From contig NZ_AUDI01000015.1 in the NCBI RefSeq assembly GCF_000425385.1, positions 186,001-250,000 of the forward strand: a DNA stretch of 64,000 bases, read 5' to 3'. The notes beneath the pieces were generated by a model that was given only the letters and a program-made list of their open reading frames with translations, had not been told where the DNA came from and ran no database searches. Shown piece by piece: positions 41,718 to 48,115 of this stretch. The position numbers and the translations under genes were made by a program. Source of the stretch: Pseudoduganella violaceinigra DSM 15887. Its GTDB lineage: Bacteria > Pseudomonadota > Gammaproteobacteria > Burkholderiales > Burkholderiaceae_D. The number at the start of each line of letters is the position of its first letter. Position 1 is the first letter of the stretch.

Positions 41718-44237
41718 TCAGGCGATGGCTTTAATGGGAATCAGCTTGCGTTCTTCGACCGTCGCGGGGCGGATCTGGCCGCGTTCCTCCATGAAGACCA
41801 CATTGCTGTCAGCTTCGGAGCTGTTGACGAAGTGGCGGAAGCGCGCGCGCGTTTCCGGGTCGTTCACGGCTTCCTTCCATTCGCAGGCGTAGGTATCGAC
41901 TACGCGCTGCATGTCTTCTTCCATCTCGGCGTTGATGCCCAGCTTGTCGTTGATGACTACCGCTTTCAAGTAATCCAGGCCACCTTCCAGGTTTTCACGC
42001 CAGGTGCTGGTGCGTTGCAAGCGGTCGGCGGTGCGGCTGTAGAACATCAGGAAGCGGTCGATGTAGTCAACCAGGGTCGCCTTGTCCAGGCCGGAAGCCA
42101 GCAGCTCAGCGTGACGCGGCTTCATGCCGCCGTTGCCGCATACGTAGAGGTTCCAGCCCTTGTCGGTCGCGATGATGCCGACATCCTTGCCCTGCGCTTC
42201 GGCACACTCGCGGGTGCAGCCAGATACGCCGAACTTGATTTTGTGCGGCGTACGCAGCCCCTTGTAGCGGTTTTCCAGCTCGATGGCGAGGCCCACGGAG
42301 TCGTCGACGCCGTAGCGGCACCAGGTGGACCCGACGCAGGACTTCACGGTGCGCAGCGATTTTCCGTACGCGTGGCCGGTTTCGAAGCCAGCCGCGATCA
42401 GCTCTTCCCAGATCAGCGGCAGCTGCTCGACACGGGCACCGAACAGGTCGACCCGCTGGCCGCCCGTGATCTTGGTGTACAGGCCGTATTTTTTTGCGAC
42501 CTGGCCAACCGCGATCAAGCCTTCCGGCGTCACTTCGCCGCCCGGCATGCGTGGCACTACCGAGTAGGTGCCGTCTTTCTGGATATTGCCAAGGAAGTAG
42601 TCGTTCGAGTCCTGCAGGCTGGCGTGCTCCTTCTTCAGCACAAAGTCGTTCCAGCAAGTGGCGAAGATGCTGGCCGCCAGCGGTTTGCAGATATCGCAGC
42701 CCATACCCTTGCCGTGACGCCCCAGCAAGTCCTCGAAGGATTTGATCTCGCCTACCCGGATCAGGTGGAACAACTCCTGGCGCGAATGCGGGAAGTGCTC
42801 GCAGACGTGATTGTTCACGTCCATGCCCAGTTTTTTCATTTCCGCCTTCATGATCTGGGTCACCAGCGGCACGCAGCCGCCGCAGGAGGTGCCTGCCCCG
42901 CAGCACTTCTTGAGGGCACCGATACTGCTAGCACCGCCGGCGACAGCGTCGCAGATAGCGCCTTTCGACACGTCGTTGCAAGAGCAGATCTGCGCCCCGG
43001 CAGGCAGGGCATCCACACCCAGTCCTGGTTTGGCTGCGCCGCCGGATTGCGGCAGGATCAGGAATTCCGGCGCCTCCGGCAATTCGATCTTGTTCAGCAT
43101 CATTTGCAGCAAGGTGCCGTATTCGCCGGCATCGCCTACCATCACGCCGCCCAGCAGATACTTGCCGCAATCGGACACCACGATCTTCTTGTACACCTGC
43201 TTGCGCTCGTCGGTGAATTGGTAGCTGCGCGCGCCCTCTTCCTTGGCATGCGGATCGCCGATGCTGGCCACGTCCACACCCATCAGCTTCAGTTTGGTGC
43301 TCATATCCGCACCACCGAATTCCGCGGCTGTGTCGCCGCTGATGTGGCGCGCCGTCACGCGGGCCATGTCGTAGCCCGGCGCCACCAGGCCGAATACCTG
43401 GCCGTTCCACAGTGCACATTCGCCTATCGCGTAAATGTCCGGATCGCTGGTCTGGCAATGGTTGTTGATGGCGATGCCGCCGCGCGCACCGACTTCGAGG
43501 CCGCACTCACGCGCCAGGGCGTCGCGCGGGCGGATGCCGGCGGAGAACACGATCATGTCGGTATCCAACGAGGTGGCGTCGGAAAACTGCATGCGGTGGG
43601 TACCGGTTTCGCCCGCCACGATGGCCGTGGTGTTCTTCCCGGTATGGACGGTCACGCCCAGCTCTTCGATCTTCTTGCGCAGCATGCGGCCGCCGCCCTC
43701 ATCGACCTGCACGGCCATCAGGCGCGGCGCGAATTCAACGACGTGGGTCTCCAGACCAAGGTCTTTCAGCGCCTTGGCGCATTCCAGTCCGAGCAAGCCG
43801 CCGCCGATGACAACGCCGCTCCTGGAACGGGCGCCGCATTCCTGCATCGCTTCCAGGTCTTCGATGGTGCGGTAGACAAAGCAGTCCTTGCGGTCCTTTC
43901 CTTCAATCTGCGGCACGAAGGGAAAAGAGCCGGTAGCGATCACCAGTTTGTCGTAAGCCAGCACTTCGCCGCTGTTGGTGGTGACGGTATGCGCGGCGCG
44001 GTCGATGGCCACGGCACGTCCGTTTAGCTTGAGCACCATGTCGTCGCGCTCGAAGAAGCCCGGCGCCACCAGCGACAGTTCATCGGCGCTCTTGCCGCTG
44101 AAGAATTCAGACAGGTGCACCCGGTCGTACGCGGGGCGCGGCTCCTCGCACAGGACGGTGACCTGGGCGCTGCCAACAGGCAGGGACTTCAGGAACTGGT
44201 GGCCCACCATGCCATGGCCGATGACGACGATTTTCAT
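41718..44237 (-). CDS. nirB: Nitrite reductase (NADH) large subunit
   Basis: Assimilatory siroheme nitrite reductase of 839 residues. N-terminal FAD/NADH modules: IVVIGHGMVGHQFLK, VVIGGGLLGLECAKAL, YAIGECALWNGQVFGLVAPGYDM. Central BFD [2Fe-2S] domain: ICSCNDVSKGAICDAV ... CCGAGTSCGGCVPL. C-terminal siroheme/[4Fe-4S] domain: CVGSTWCRYG and CTRECAEAQG, four ligand cysteines. It reduces nitrite by six electrons to ammonium. The start at 44237 overlaps the porter stop by 4 bases. The same strand carries nirD next. Confidence 0.97.
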   Translation of the reverse strand: MKIVVIGHGMVGHQFLKSLPVGSAQVTVLCEEPRPAYDRVHLSEFFSGKSADELSLVAPGFFERDDMVLKLNGRAVAIDRAAHTVTTNSGEVLAYDKLVIATGSFPFVPQIEGKDRKDCFVYRTIEDLEAMQECGARSRSGVVIGGGLLGLECAKALKDLGLETHVVEFAPRLMAVQVDEGGGRMLRKKIEELGVTVHTGKNTTAIVAGETGTHRMQFSDATSLDTDMIVFSAGIRPRDALARECGLEVGARGGIAINNHCQTSDPDIYAIGECALWNGQVFGLVAPGYDMARVTARHISGDTAAEFGGADMSTKLKLMGVDVASIGDPHAKEEGARSYQFTDERKQVYKKIVVSDCGKYLLGGVMVGDAGEYGTLLQMMLNKIELPEAPEFLILPQSGGAAKPGLGVDALPAGAQICSCNDVSKGAICDAVAGGASSIGALKKCCGAGTSCGGCVPLVTQIMKAEMKKLGMDVNNHVCEHFPHSRQELFHLIRVGEIKSFEDLLGRHGKGMGCDICKPLAASIFATCWNDFVLKKEHASLQDSNDYFLGNIQKDGTYSVVPRMPGGEVTPEGLIAVGQVAKKYGLYTKITGGQRVDLFGARVEQLPLIWEELIAAGFETGHAYGKSLRTVKSCVGSTWCRYGVDDSVGLAIELENRYKGLRTPHKIKFGVSGCTRECAEAQGKDVGIIATDKGWNLYVCGNGGMKPRHAELLASGLDKATLVDYIDRFLMFYSRTADRLQRTSTWRENLEGGLDYLKAVVINDKLGINAEMEEDMQRVVDTYACEWKEAVNDPETRARFRHFVNSSEADSNVVFMEERGQIRPATVEERKLIPIKAIA

Positions 44238-45535
44238 GCTGCCGCTCCTGCAATGGCGTTTTCTTTGACTGTGGACTCGCTGAAGCGCGCAGCCAGCGCA
44301 CACAGGGCGGAAATGGCGACCAGCACACCGAGTATCCATAAGGTTTGCTGGGTATTGCCGACGCCTTTCAGCAGGAAGCCCGCCGCCACCGCGCCCACAT
44401 TGCCTCCGGCGCCGATAATTCCAGCAACCCCGCCCAGCGCGCGCTTGTCGATGAAAGGCACGAGCGCATAGGTGGCGCCGCAGGCCATATGGGTGAACAG
44501 GCCGAATACCAGCATCGAGATGACAGCCAGGCTCACGCTGTCGGCCCTGGAAAAGAACAACAGCCCGATGCCTTCACCCAGCATCACGACGAAGAGCAGG
44601 GTGACGCGGCTATTCAGGCTGCCGCGGTAAGCAGCCTTGTCGGACAACCAGCCTCCTAGCGCACGGGCGAACAGCGCCAGCAGGCCGAAGCTGCCCGCCG
44701 CCAGGCCGGCCTGTGCCAGCGACAGCTTGTAGGTGTCAACGTAATAAGTGGCGGCGATGTTGTGGATGAAGATCTCCGCGCCGAAGCAGGCCCCGTAGGT
44801 CACAAACAGCATCCAGACGCGATAGTTTTTCGCCGCCAGTTTGAAGCTCTCCCAGCCGCCTTTCCTGCCCCCTTCCAGCGCGATGCCGGCGGCGCGCAAG
44901 TCGGCGTAGTTGCCGTCCGGGCAGTCCTGGGTGAAGCGGTAGTAGACAAAGGCCATGACCAGCATCAGCACGCCCGGCACCACCAGGGCGGCGCGCCAGC
45001 CCATGGTCTCGCCGACGCCCAGCATGATCATGGCGGCCATGATCATCGGCATGGTGGACTGCACCACGCCGCCGCCCGCATTGCCCCAACCGGCAGCCGC
45101 CGCATTGGCGGTACCCACCACGTTTGGCGCGAACATGACGGAGGTGTGGTACTGGGTGATCACGAAACTGGCACCGACCGCGCCAATCAGAAGGCGGAAA
45201 AACAGGAAGCTCTCATAGGTTTGCGCTGCGGCGACGCCCAGCACCGGAATGGCGCCCAGGAGGAGCAGGCCAGTGTAAGCCTTGCGCGGGCCGATGCGGT
45301 CACACAGCGGGCCGATGACCAGGCGCACGATGATCGTGATCGCCACGGCGGCGATATTGATATTGGCCACTTGCGCCGCGGTCAGGCCGAATTCGCCTTT
45401 GATCACGGGCATCAGAGGCGCACAGGCGAACCATGCGAAGAAACAGATGAAGAAGGCCATCCAGGTAAGGTGGAAGGCGCGCATCTGCGGCGTGGAGAAC
45501 GAAAACAGTTTGATGCTGGTCGCTTTACTGGCCAT
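44234..45535 (-). CDS. narK: NNP-family MFS nitrate/nitrite transporter
   Basis: Twelve-helix MFS porter of 433 residues for nitrate uptake or nitrite exchange. Nitrate-signature segments: GWGNAGGGVVQSTMP (NS1) and GIIGAGGNVGAVAAGFLL (NS2), plus FVITQYHTSVMFAPNVVGTANA. It opens MASKATSIKLFSFSTPQMRAFHLTWMAFFICFFAWF. As first gene of the operon, it is preceded by a 110-base leader that ends in a NasT-controlled terminator. Assimilatory context suggests import. Gene naming varies (nasA, nrtP, narK). Confidence 0.95.
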   Translation of the reverse strand: MASKATSIKLFSFSTPQMRAFHLTWMAFFICFFAWFACAPLMPVIKGEFGLTAAQVANINIAAVAITIIVRLVIGPLCDRIGPRKAYTGLLLLGAIPVLGVAAAQTYESFLFFRLLIGAVGASFVITQYHTSVMFAPNVVGTANAAAAGWGNAGGGVVQSTMPMIMAAMIMLGVGETMGWRAALVVPGVLMLVMAFVYYRFTQDCPDGNYADLRAAGIALEGGRKGGWESFKLAAKNYRVWMLFVTYGACFGAEIFIHNIAATYYVDTYKLSLAQAGLAAGSFGLLALFARALGGWLSDKAAYRGSLNSRVTLLFVVMLGEGIGLLFFSRADSVSLAVISMLVFGLFTHMACGATYALVPFIDKRALGGVAGIIGAGGNVGAVAAGFLLKGVGNTQQTLWILGVLVAISALCALAARFSESTVKENAIAGAAA

Positions 45536-45548
45536 GATGTAGTCCCTG

Positions 45549-45605
45549 AAAACAAAAAGGCGTCCGCGCAGCCGCCGCCATCGATGGCAGTGCTGTGCGG
45601 ACGCC
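45549..45605 (-). terminator. Leader attenuator terminator upstream of the nitrate operon
   Basis: On the minus strand a long hairpin begins GGCGTCCGC and closes GCGGACGCC (about 20 pairs with minor bulges), then TTTTTGTTTT, 14 bases before the porter ATG. Its 5' arm includes the 3' arm of the upstream P2 hairpin, so P2 and terminator cannot form together. This is the switch that NasT would control. Confidence 0.88.
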
Positions 45606-45639
45606 GTTGTCCGGTTAGCCGGTCCTCCGTTAGACCGGC
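45598..45639 (-). ncRNA. ANTAR-target dual-hairpin leader RNA (P1-P2)
   Basis: P1 (45639-45618) pairs GCCGGTCT with GGACCGGC around the hexaloop AACGGA. P2 (45613-45598) pairs CGGAC with GTCCG around the hexaloop AACGGC. Both loops have A at position 1 and G at position 4, the defining ANTAR recognition pattern. P2 overlaps the terminator 5' arm. Transcription should start only a few bases before P1. NasT, encoded about 1.3 kb upstream, carries the ANTAR domain. The pattern is read directly; protein binding is inferred from NasR/NasT precedents. Confidence 0.88.
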
Positions 45640-45654
45640 GCTTTAACGATGCTT

Positions 45655-45670
45655 TGCAAGACCCGTGCCA
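45655..45670 (-). promoter_or_regulatory. Sigma-54 promoter of the nitrate assimilation operon
   Basis: TGGCACGGGTCTTGCA on the minus strand is an exact match to TGGCACG-N4-TTGCW. The predicted start near 45644 puts the ANTAR hairpins at the very 5' end of the transcript. NtrC-type activation under nitrogen limitation is expected. Confidence 0.9.
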
Positions 45671-45739: not shown

Positions 45740-45760
45740 TGCGCCCAAAATTGGTGCACC
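45740..45760. promoter_or_regulatory. Possible NtrC enhancer site
   Basis: TGCGCC-N7-GGTGCA, similar to the NtrC palindrome TGCACC-N5-GGTGCA but two bases longer in the spacer, about 80 bases upstream of the sigma-54 promoter where enhancers lie. The spacing mismatch makes it weak. Confidence 0.3.
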
Positions 45761-45775
45761 GCAATAGCGCACGCG

Positions 45776-46900
45776 CTACATCCTGATGTCGAACGACGCC
45801 GCATAGCGTTCAGGATCGCGGCCATCCCAGGTGGCGCCGTCCATGAACACGGAACTGCGCAGGGCGCTGTCGGGAATCTCCGTCCCGGTCATCTCCGCCG
45901 CCTCCTTGTACAGGGCGACCTGCTGCACCTTGAGCGCGGTGCCCAGGTAGTCCGGCGCGGCCTGCAGCAGGCCCCAGCGCCGCTGCTGCGTCATGAACCA
46001 CATGCCGTCCGATAGATAGGGGAAGTTGGCCGCGCCCTCCAGGTGGAAGCGCATGCTGTGCGCATCCACCCAGCTGTGCCCCATGCCGTCTTCATAGTGG
46101 CCGAGAATGCGCTGCCAGATCACGTCCTTGCCCGTGTTGACGTATTGGACGGCGGAGATGATCTCGGCCATCGCCATGCGGTTGGCGTCGCTGGCGTCGA
46201 TCCAGCGCCCCGCTTCCAGCACAGCGGCGATCAGCGCTCGGGCAGTGCTGGGATGGCTCCGGGTGAAATCGGCGGTGGCGGCCAGCACCTTTTCCGGATG
46301 GTCGGGCCAGATCTGCTGGCTGGTGGCGATGGTGACGCCGACGCCGTCCATCAGCGCGCGATGATTCCACGGCTCGCCGACGCAAAAGCCATCGATATGG
46401 CCGCCCGCCAGGCTGGCCGCCATCTGCGAAGGCGGCACGGTGATCACGCGCGCTTCGCGCAAGGGATGCACGCCATGCGCGGCCAGCCAGTAATACAGCC
46501 ACATGGCGTGCGTTCCGGTCGGGAAGGTATGCGCCCAGCGCAGCTCGCGCCGGTGCGACAGCGCGGCAACGGCGGGGCCATCGCACGCGCCCTCGTCCGC
46601 CAAACGGCGCGCGAGGGTGATGGCCTGTCCATTGCGGTTCAGGTTCATCAGAACAGCCATATCGCGCCGGGCCGACCCCACCCCAAGATGGGTTGCATAA
46701 ACAAGCCCGTACAGTGCATGGGCAGCATCGAGTTCGCCGGTCAGCAGCTTGTCTCGCACACCGGCCCAGGAAGTCTCCTTGCTCAAGACGATGCGGATGC
46801 CATGCTTGCGGTCCAGCCCCAGGACGGACGCCATTACCAGCGAGGCGCAGTCCGTGAGCGGATTGAAGCCCACTCTAACGATGTCTTTTTCAATCTGCAT
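45776..46900 (-). CDS. nasS: Nitrate sensor NasS (NrtA/CmpA-like)
   Basis: A 374-residue periplasmic-binding-protein-like sensor without a signal peptide (starts MQIEKDIVRVGFNPLTDC), so cytoplasmic. It has CmpA/NrtA family features: KLLTGELDAAHALYG, PTGTHAMWLYYWLAAHGV, GHIDGFCVGEPWN. Known NasS proteins bind NasT and release it when nitrate or nitrite is present, allowing antitermination. It lies 36 bases after nasT and directly before the sigma-54/ANTAR leader. An ABC transporter component is the alternative, but there is no permease or ATPase gene and no signal sequence. Confidence 0.9.
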   Translation of the reverse strand: MQIEKDIVRVGFNPLTDCASLVMASVLGLDRKHGIRIVLSKETSWAGVRDKLLTGELDAAHALYGLVYATHLGVGSARRDMAVLMNLNRNGQAITLARRLADEGACDGPAVAALSHRRELRWAHTFPTGTHAMWLYYWLAAHGVHPLREARVITVPPSQMAASLAGGHIDGFCVGEPWNHRALMDGVGVTIATSQQIWPDHPEKVLAATADFTRSHPSTARALIAAVLEAGRWIDASDANRMAMAEIISAVQYVNTGKDVIWQRILGHYEDGMGHSWVDAHSMRFHLEGAANFPYLSDGMWFMTQQRRWGLLQAAPDYLGTALKVQQVALYKEAAEMTGTEIPDSALRSSVFMDGATWDGRDPERYAASFDIRM

Positions 46901-46936: not shown

Positions 46937-47530
46937 TCAGCCGAGCAAATCCTCCGCGTCCAGGATACGCTGGGCCAGCTCCCCCAGCTTCAGGTTCTTG
47001 TTCATGGCCATGCTACGCAATTTTTGGAATGCCTGCTCCTCGGTCAGTCCCTGGCGCGCCATGAAAATGCCCTTGGCGCGGTCGATCAGCTTGCGCTCGG
47101 CCAGCTTGAGGCGGGCGACTTCCAGTTCGTCCAGAAGCTTCTGTTCGCGCCTGAAGCGCGCCATGGCGACATTCAGCACGGGCTTGATGCGCTCCGGCTG
47201 CAAACCGGCCACCACATAGGCGGAAACCCCGGCCGCCATTGCGGCTTCCATGGAATCGGCCTTGTCGTCTTCTGTGAACATGACGATGGGGCGGCGTTCG
47301 TCGCGGGTGGCGATGACGATATGTTCGAGCACGTCACGCGCATCCGATTCGGCATCGACAATGATCATGTCGGGTTGCAGGCGAAGGATATGTTCCGCCA
47401 GGTGGAAGTCGGCCGCCAGCGAAGCCACCAGATCGTACCCGGCCTCCGCCAAACCGCTGCACAAGGCATGGGCACGCGCCTCACTTTCATGCGGCGGATG
47501 GATCAAAACGATGCGTAGATTGCGGCTCAT
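46937..47530 (-). CDS. nasT: ANTAR-domain antitermination regulator NasT
   Basis: A 197-residue protein. The N-terminal receiver-like domain begins MSRNLRIVLIHPP, with DMIIVDAESDARDVLEHI and VMFTEDDK, and lacks a clean phosphorylation pocket. A coiled linker follows (LLDELEVARLKLAERKLIDR). The C-terminal ANTAR domain (about 145-190) reads AKGIFMARQGLTEEQAFQKL...AMNKNLKLGELAQRIL. It binds dual-hairpin RNA and prevents terminator formation. Its target is the leader at 45549-45639. It is held inactive by NasS in the absence of nitrate (known in Azotobacter and Paracoccus). Confidence 0.94.
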   Translation of the reverse strand: MSRNLRIVLIHPPHESEARAHALCSGLAEAGYDLVASLAADFHLAEHILRLQPDMIIVDAESDARDVLEHIVIATRDERRPIVMFTEDDKADSMEAAMAAGVSAYVVAGLQPERIKPVLNVAMARFRREQKLLDELEVARLKLAERKLIDRAKGIFMARQGLTEEQAFQKLRSMAMNKNLKLGELAQRILDAEDLLG

Positions 47531-47560
47531 GCCTCCCCTGCAGCAAGAACCGCGCCAGCT

Positions 47561-48115
47561 TCAGTCCACGGCAACCTGCATGAGGCTGTGCTGGTCCCAG
47601 AACAATAGATCATCCGGCAGCCAGGAATGGCGATACAGGTGCTGTGGGCGCGTGGCGTGGGCATGCAGTTCCTGCAGCAGCTCCTTGCTTTCGGCATCGC
47701 TTGCCCCCACCACGCGCGTGGCTGCCGGGTCAGGCACCACGAGGGCACGGCGGCCCGTTTCCGGGTACAGGCGCACCAGCGGCAGCGCTCCGGCGGCGCC
47801 TTCCTGCAACACCCGCGCGCTATGGACGAGGCGCCGCAAGCCAAGAGTCAGCGTGTCGTACGCCATCTGCAGGTTGGAGAACAAGGCGGCTTCACCGTGC
47901 GGCGCCAGCGATTGCGCGGCCAGGCGATGGCCGGCATCGCGCTGCAAGCGCGGCGTGACCTGCTGGCCGCGGAAGACCAGCAAATGGTGATCGAGCAAGG
48001 CCGATTGCAGGCGGTCGGTATTGTTGTCGTCCCGGTCGTGCGCCAAGCTGAAGCCGATGACTTCCGCGCCGAGGGGCGCGTCGAGAATGCGGATGTCGAA
48101 ATGCGGCCAGTTCAT
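47561..48115 (-). pseudogene. Decayed TauD/TfdA-family dioxygenase
   Basis: A 184-residue frame with TauD landmarks: DIRILDAPLGAEVIGFSL at the N-terminus, LLDHHLLVFRGQQVTPRLQRDAG, LVRLYPETGRRALVV, SKELLQELHAHATRPQHLYRHSW and PDDLLFWDQHSLMQVAVD at the end. Functional members have about 280 residues with an HxD...H iron triad. Here the HxD segment between the FRGQ and YPETGR regions is missing and the C-terminus stops just where HxxxxxD should occur. An internal deletion plus truncation is the simplest reading, so no 2-oxoglutarate dioxygenase activity is expected. It is adjacent to nasT but unrelated to nitrate. Confidence 0.6.

Follow-up and report, generated by a model that had tools for sequence, protein, structure and literature searches.

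Two-signal gates that join Ntr control of a promoter to nitrate-dependent antitermination are already known. In Pseudomonas, the NalA leader of nirBD combines a sigma-54 promoter, a need for NtrC phosphorylation and antitermination by NasT, as summarized in a 2026 review (PMC12830290, citing Romeo 2012 and Nie 2024). The nas genes of Klebsiella combine Ntr control with NasR, according to the outline given in PMC5424462, and the nasF leader of Klebsiella oxytoca, under Ntr and nitrate control, carries a dual hexaloop (A at loop position 1, G at position 4; hereafter A1/G4) whose second hairpin, P2, overlaps the terminator (Stewart and van Tilbeurgh 2012). For Paracoccus denitrificans, nitrate is described as freeing NasT from NasS, after which NasT binds the nasA leader RNA (PMC3795266); in the account of PMC5424462, hairpin HI of this leader is required for expression, and nasT has an NtrC site, whereas one at nasA was just supposed. 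In a survey of sigma-54 regulons, 66 promoters are predicted for genes of COG3707, the ANTAR group to which NasT belongs (PMC12316311).

The same P1–P2 arrangement of A1/G4 hexaloops is described for the eut leaders of Enterococcus faecalis, recognized by EutV, where it is under a spacing constraint (linkers of 5–12 nt, with 3 or 14 nt impairing eutP induction, in the experiments of PMC3369931; a 20-nt linker extension abolished antitermination in vitro in those of PMC8934654). Views on how the ANTAR dimer uses two hexaloops diverge: one dimer recognizes P1 and P2 together in Stewart and van Tilbeurgh (2012) and in the model outlined by Ramesh 2012 (PMC3369931), whereas the model set out by Walshe 2022 (PMC8934654) holds that a dimer cannot hold both hexaloops and proposes recruitment followed by hand-over. 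The EutX RNA, which sequesters EutV, has one hexaloop beyond the dual motif, and the description of EutX in PMC8934654 does not present it as an antiterminating leader.

Here we analyse, by computation throughout, a leader in a 64,000-nt stretch of contig NZ_AUDI01000015.1 of Pseudoduganella violaceinigra DSM 15887 (referred to hereafter as the window). Read from the minus strand, the leader separates nasS from a porter gene and comprises a -24/-12 element, hairpins P1 and P2, and an intrinsic terminator. It resembles NalA, as far as the review describes the latter, in its sigma-54/NtrC~P promoter, its leader RNA with a terminator, and NasT antitermination that would be freed by nitrate through NasS, and differs in what is controlled (nirBD in Pseudomonas, a porter–nirB operon in the window). 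It shares the dual A1/G4 hexaloop and terminator-overlapping P2 with nasF, although NasR is a one-component nitrate sensor whereas the window splits sensing between NasS and NasT. The hexaloops are likewise those of the eut leaders, yet EutV is activated through phosphorylation by EutW and NasT through release from NasS; to our knowledge, the E. faecalis eut leaders have no sigma-54 promoter. Because the gate is established, the window adds one more example of it, and its value lies in comparison: what is new is a family of three-hexaloop leaders and, judged from the sequences compared here, a natural deletion of the first hairpin (P0) in the window's clade. We put the probability at roughly 85% that the window carries an attenuator governed by NasT downstream of a sigma-54 promoter, its leader derived from a three-hexaloop ancestor by one loss of the first hairpin.

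Promoter, leader and regulators in the window

The first gene of the controlled operon encodes an MFS porter (44234..45535, minus strand; PF07690, E 1.5e-30), whose substrate is presumably nitrate/nitrite to judge from the neighbouring genes. It is followed by a nirB-like nitrite reductase gene (41718..44240, minus strand; domains Pyr_redox_2, Fer2_BFD and NIR_SIR), for whose frame the ORF listing gives a further start upstream of 44240. On the other side of the leader, also on the minus strand, stand nasS, for the nitrate-sensor partner of NasT (45776..46900; PF13379, E 5.7e-89), and nasT, for a receiver-like and ANTAR RNA-binding protein (46937..47530; PF03861, E 1.4e-20). These two domain matches upstream of the porter bear out the proposal, made by a sequence-only reading of this DNA, that NasT and NasS are encoded next to the nitrate operon; the name nasS is assigned from its position adjoining nasT. 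Two further features lie beside nasT: a sigma-54-like TGGCGC-N5-TTGCT (47542-47557, minus strand) about 12 nt before its start codon, which leaves too little room for an ordinary leader that includes a ribosome site, and an adjoining open frame (47561-48115, minus strand), the start of which, we believe, resembles a TauD-type dioxygenase.

The promoter element, TGGCACGGGTCTTGCA (45670-45655, minus strand), matches TGGCAC-N5-TTGCW without mismatch (as TGGCAC-N5-TTGCA), exactly as had been claimed, and also fits the GG-N10-GC requirement of sigma-54 promoters. Counting from the C of the -12 motif places the predicted transcript start about 12 nt further on, at ~45644. The match by itself is weaker evidence (4 matches in the window at ≤1 mismatch, 3.45 expected), and the promoter call carries weight because of its position and conservation: 80 named homologous loci were obtained by searching genome contigs for the porter, and the element, with 0 or 1 mismatch, lies upstream of the porter in 78 of them, the other two being cut by contig ends. 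The leaders compared below number 79, namely the window and 78 loci (L089 and L096, whose leader is cut by contig ends, were left out).

An NtrC-like site, TGCACCAATTTTGGGCG (45742..45758, minus strand), is centred ~106 nt before the predicted start and consists of one strong half-site with a poor second half. In 62/79 leaders a half-site of this type (GCACCA or TGGTGC) occurs in the 180 nt that precede the -24 element, as against 10% of mononucleotide shuffles, while the best NtrC 17-mer of the homologous leaders scores just moderately above shuffles. The genome encodes RpoN (E 4.4e-65) and one NtrC above the curated cut-off (642 bits; 688 with a neighbouring match), which would bind the 45742-45758 site. 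Many further matches to the ntrC model fall below the cut-off, several of them long, and these, together with the imperfect site, leave some room for an enhancer-binding protein other than NtrC as the driver of the promoter; we regard this as unlikely given the enrichment of half-sites and the known NtrC control of such a leader.

Downstream of the promoter, P1 (45639-45618, minus strand; 8 bp including one U-G, loop AACGGA) starts at about +6, and the antiterminator hairpin P2 (45613-45598, minus strand; 5 bp, loop AACGGC) follows. The intrinsic terminator (45549..45605, minus strand) has its stem at 45605-45559 and its U-run at 45558-45549, and the end of the U-run is 13 nt from the porter ATG (45535). 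Both hairpins fold as the sequence-only reading had drawn them, just past the predicted start and with A1 and G4 in each loop; its statement that the 3' arm of P2 is common to the terminator before the porter likewise stands, since this arm is part of the terminator 5' arm, such that P2 overlaps and excludes the terminator. The window leader thus has the two stems of at least 3 bp, with 6-nt loops bearing A1 and G4, that define the dual hexaloop, and a cognate ANTAR protein encoded beside it. The leader folds at -55.9 kcal/mol, whereas its shuffles average -33.9 (sd 3.1), giving z -7.2 with 0/200 shuffles as good. Forcing P2 costs ~18 kcal/mol relative to the terminator state, yet in the growing transcript P1 and P2 fold earlier than the terminator. 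Since the terminator wins once its 3' arm is made, read-through needs a factor holding P2.

We observe that NasT is supported, by its genomic position and its resemblance to characterized ANTAR proteins, as the factor that would act on this leader. Its best solved relatives are EutV (6wsh, E 8e-22), Rv1626 (E 3.1e-18) and NasR (4akk, E 9.6e-10). From Walshe et al. we took ten EutV positions and mapped them onto NasT by pairwise alignment with an inferred two-residue offset: six are identical (R142, K143, K149, E160, M172 and N173), three are conservatively replaced (K147, Y164 and R177 by R, F and K) and R175 is replaced by N. A second receiver-ANTAR protein (209 aa; contig C11:68970-69125 of G000, L002), encoded next to a gene that we take to resemble thiamine-phosphate synthase, also exceeds the ANTAR cut-off, at 42.5 bits, and might be imagined to bind the leader in place of NasT. 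We consider this highly improbable: its gene lies on another contig, whereas nasT is next door here and scores higher (75.1 bits). Among the 80 homologous loci, nasT is found within the available upstream stretch in 28, and NasT as the partner is therefore inferred for the rest.

Two Rfam families were tried for the window leader and rejected, narK RNA (RF03032; 36.1 bits, E 0.00024, under the gathering cut-off of 43.2) and P11 (RF00625; 28.7 bits, under the cut-off of 70). In the matches to window 45598-45669, the consensus line of each holds a -24/-12-like stretch and two A1/G4 hexaloops, as the window does, although the window falls under both cut-offs. Both families look like a sigma-54 promoter with a NasT-type leader, in which case each “RNA” would include some promoter DNA that is never transcribed. 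The narK RNA model pairs one hairpin only; in the P11 alignment, which we take to be the NalA leader, the two hairpins are further apart than in the window. No paper using “narK RNA” or “narK motif” was found in the literature searched.

Three-hexaloop leaders among relatives

The window leader is not typical of its relatives. Counting hexaloops with at least four stem pairs and A1/G4 (the rule for this set), 72/79 leaders have three, termed P0, P1 and P2 in order of transcription, and 7/79 have two; the description of a two-hexaloop leader is thus correct for the window and exceptional among related loci, and the window, having no P0, falls outside the three-hexaloop form of the Oxalobacteraceae, in which all three hairpins are present. 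The seven comprise the window and L033, both without P0, four Paraburkholderia/Burkholderia leaders without P1, and one from Cupriavidus (L098) in which a strong middle hairpin is still present but its loop is not of the ANTAR type (UCUUCA; with an additional pair, CUUC). One leader, L110, counts among the 72 only in a shifted P2 register and was left out of the conservation and spacing sets. A terminator that uses the P2 arm and has a T run of at least 4 is present in 78/79 leaders.

The four leaders that manage without P1, and the Cupriavidus loop, open the way to an explanation in which the third hexaloop of the relatives is a structural accident or a mere spacer, its loss in the window having no meaning for ANTAR binding. 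Several observations on the middle hairpin speak against this. When the sequence that separates P0 from P2 is folded with no constraint on the loop, the same middle hairpin is returned in 72/72 three-hexaloop leaders (in 14/72 the fold adds one A-U pair, narrowing the middle loop to four bases). Across 89 unique three-hexaloop leaders, drawn from 112 collected, the P1 loop has A1 and G4 in 89/89 and A2 in 87, and the P0 loop A1, A2 and G4 in 89/89; the A1/G4 invariance is partly by construction, since rows were chosen by the A1/G4 rule, but the freedom at other loop positions is not, and positions 3 and 6 of the P1 loop use all four bases. P0 pairs 4 and 5 and P1 pairs 3, 4, 6 and 7 are paired at a frequency that none of 500 shuffles reaches (P1 pair 6 in 67/89 leaders only), and P1 pairs 3 and 4 vary on both sides, with 0/500 shuffles as good (at pair 4, GC is replaced by AT in 19 rows); kinship among the sequences inflates these counts. 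P2 is nearly fixed, its inner 4 bp being invariant in 89/89, and in the comparison of the 89 leaders with shuffles there was no covariation support for P0 pairs 1–3, P1 pairs 1, 2 and 5, or any pair of P2. The covariation check suggested for P1–P2 across relatives favours P1 (pairs 3, 4, 6 and 7) and finds P2 conserved without covariation. RNAalifold, run on a MAFFT alignment of three-hexaloop leaders, predicts P0, P1 and P2 and no other helix.

Leaders beyond the named loci were gathered with a pattern that fixes the promoter and P2 and leaves P0 and P1 free, and is for this reason suited to hexaloop counts. The pattern matches 92/399 Burkholderiales genomes (the order inferred from the named loci), a lower bound since an exact pattern misses diverged leaders. 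Under the stricter rule used for other families and for spacing (5 pairs with A1, A2 and G4), 95 leaders outside the family divide into 29 short two-hexaloop, 34 long two-hexaloop, 20 three-hexaloop and 12 with P2 alone, some of the latter having a weaker hairpin under the other rule. The 20 come from eight other families (f5, f14, f21, f27, f31, f35, f50 and f51), and a middle hexaloop is present in 20/43 long leaders of other families as against 0.5% of mononucleotide shuffles. The genomes L120, L123 and L136 score two hexaloops owing to P1 stem mismatches (L262 is the genome of L120). Taking the middle hairpin's folding, base-pair changes and recurrence together with the leaders that do without it, we consider the accident-or-spacer explanation rather unlikely, though it is the plain reading that a spare or spacer hairpin would invite.

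The pattern replaced an initial search with the narK model, which matched 110/145 genomes at E ≤1, none over the cut-off, and also 2/14 control genomes; of the 30 loci that this model returned, many past roughly the first 20 look like chance. We found no report of three-hexaloop ANTAR antiterminating leaders in the literature searched, from which subscription papers were mostly outside the scope.

Loss of P0 and the P1–P2 spacing

The identity of the first hairpin in the window can be read from its base pairs. Outward from the loop these are U-G, C-G, U-A, G-C, G-C, C-G, C-G and G-C, all of types found in P1 of the relatives; the first two pairs of P0, in contrast, are C-G and U-A in 89/89 leaders, unlike those of the window hairpin. 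On this comparison the window's first hairpin is the counterpart of the middle hairpin P1 of the three-hexaloop relatives, and not of P0. The distance from the -12 C to the start of the first hairpin is preserved: 12–16 nt in 72/72 three-hexaloop leaders, 16 nt in the window leader.

Within the genus, 73/74 genomes match the promoter-to-P2 pattern, of which 67 have P0 and six lack it (G000, G144, G159, G181, G184 and G206), the matches having been read by eye. On a midpoint-rooted tree built from 93 porter genes, all rows without P0 group in one clade (SH-aLRT 100) whose nearest outside rows, L046 and L252, keep P0; the whole distribution of leader types on this tree needs two changes. The clade sits among P0-bearing rows, and the change is therefore a loss and not a gain of P0: the two-hexaloop form in the window is, by this reconstruction, derived, with what would be a single P0 loss at the base of the six-genome clade. 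P1 and P2 persist in each of the six P0-less leaders, as does a terminator that uses the P2 arm and has a T run of at least 4; their P1 has 7 or 8 pairs and retains A1/G4, and now occupies the promoter-proximal position held by P0 in relatives.

The spacing of the remaining hairpins also differs. In the window the P1–P2 linker measures 4 nt when P2 is given 5 bp, or 5 nt when it is given 4 bp, and the gap between the loops is 17 nt; this loop gap is 16–18 nt in 6/6 P0-less leaders, while among 71 three-hexaloop relatives from the named loci, 42 have a gap of 13 nt and 9 one of 14 nt (51/71 at 13–14), and the other 20 have 16–21 nt. The 29 short two-hexaloop leaders of other families have loop gaps of 14 nt upwards, where only the lower bound is informative because the short/long split at 30 nt was our own choice. 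Gap widening of this kind fits the idea that P1 and P2 had to become a working pair after the loss of P0. Against a compensatory widening stand the single event, the gaps of 16–21 nt in P0-bearing relatives, and the P1–P2 gaps of 15–23 nt in the 20 three-hexaloop leaders outside the family, from which it follows that 13 nt is a habit of this family and no rule of three-hexaloop leaders.

A second difference lies in NasT. Residue 168 corresponds to Tyr164 of EutV, the residue that stacks on loop G4. It is Phe in the window's NasT and throughout the P0-less rows (6/6), and in just 2/35 other NasT rows, L035 and L085, both of them three-hexaloop (some rows repeat a genome; L251 duplicates L033). 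Since the change from Tyr to Phe is one event, and is also present in L035 and L085, we claim no link between it and the loss of P0.

Could the loss of P0 have weakened the response to NasT in this clade, leaving an attenuated leader under poor NasT control with P1–P2 as a relic? The retention of three hexaloops in 72/79 leaders implies that P0 probably matters, and the Phe at the G4-stacking position could be taken in the same sense. The hexaloops and stem lengths that all six leaders have kept, the sharing of the P2 arm by the terminator, a P0-less gap that falls inside the range of the short two-hexaloop leaders elsewhere, and the same Phe in two rows with three hexaloops all count against such decay, which we judge to be very unlikely.

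Proposed mechanism and related leaders

We favour a NasT-controlled attenuator, which would work as follows. Under nitrogen limitation, NtrC~P would activate the -24/-12 promoter, and RNA polymerase would transcribe P1, then P2, then the terminator. If nitrate is absent, NasS would hold NasT, P2 would yield to the far more stable terminator, and transcription would stop before the porter gene. If nitrate is present, NasT would be released, recruited by the P1 hexaloop and handed on to keep P2 closed; with P2 held by NasT the terminator could not form, and the porter–nirB operon would be read. The AND gate of nitrogen limitation and nitrate that the sequence-only reading saw here is supported, as a prediction, by the presence of all its parts (the element, P1, P2, terminator, nasT/nasS, rpoN and ntrC); it is not novel, the same gate having been published for Pseudomonas NalA and Klebsiella.

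The boldest interpretation extends this to the relatives, making their three-hexaloop leaders a real variant in which the nascent transcript would capture NasT on P0 at once, and NasT would then pass by way of P1 to P2, arriving there ahead of terminator formation. The window's clade would then be a natural P0 deletion, with P1 recruiting, the gap widened to the two-hexaloop range and NasT changed from Tyr to Phe in the same clade. We offer this relay tentatively, holding it at somewhat below even odds. The P0 deletion is relevant to the question of how several hexaloops are used by an ANTAR dimer, and the three-hexaloop relatives, the P0-less clade and the Paraburkholderia leaders that lack the middle hairpin make up a ready-made series, within one protein family and one operon, that could separate models of simultaneous holding from those of hand-over.

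Related leaders occur at other positions in some of the loci. At L041 (1502), L055 (1441), L057 (1390) and L085 (1005), and also L263 (301), a sigma-54 promoter with a two-hexaloop leader lies between nasT and nasS, an arrangement in which NasT would induce the nitrate-sensing protein that inhibits it; these loci have three hexaloops in their porter leader. In Paraburkholderia/Burkholderia, L095 (5514), L097 (5552), L101 (5518) and L111 (5532) carry, besides the porter leader, a second sigma-54 promoter with a two-hexaloop leader just before nirB. At the contig start of a metagenome-assembled Massilia (L089, 1-101), a hairpin has the loop GTCGTT. This is the ANTAR loop AACGAC in reverse complement, as would result from an inversion of the hairpin at its own site.
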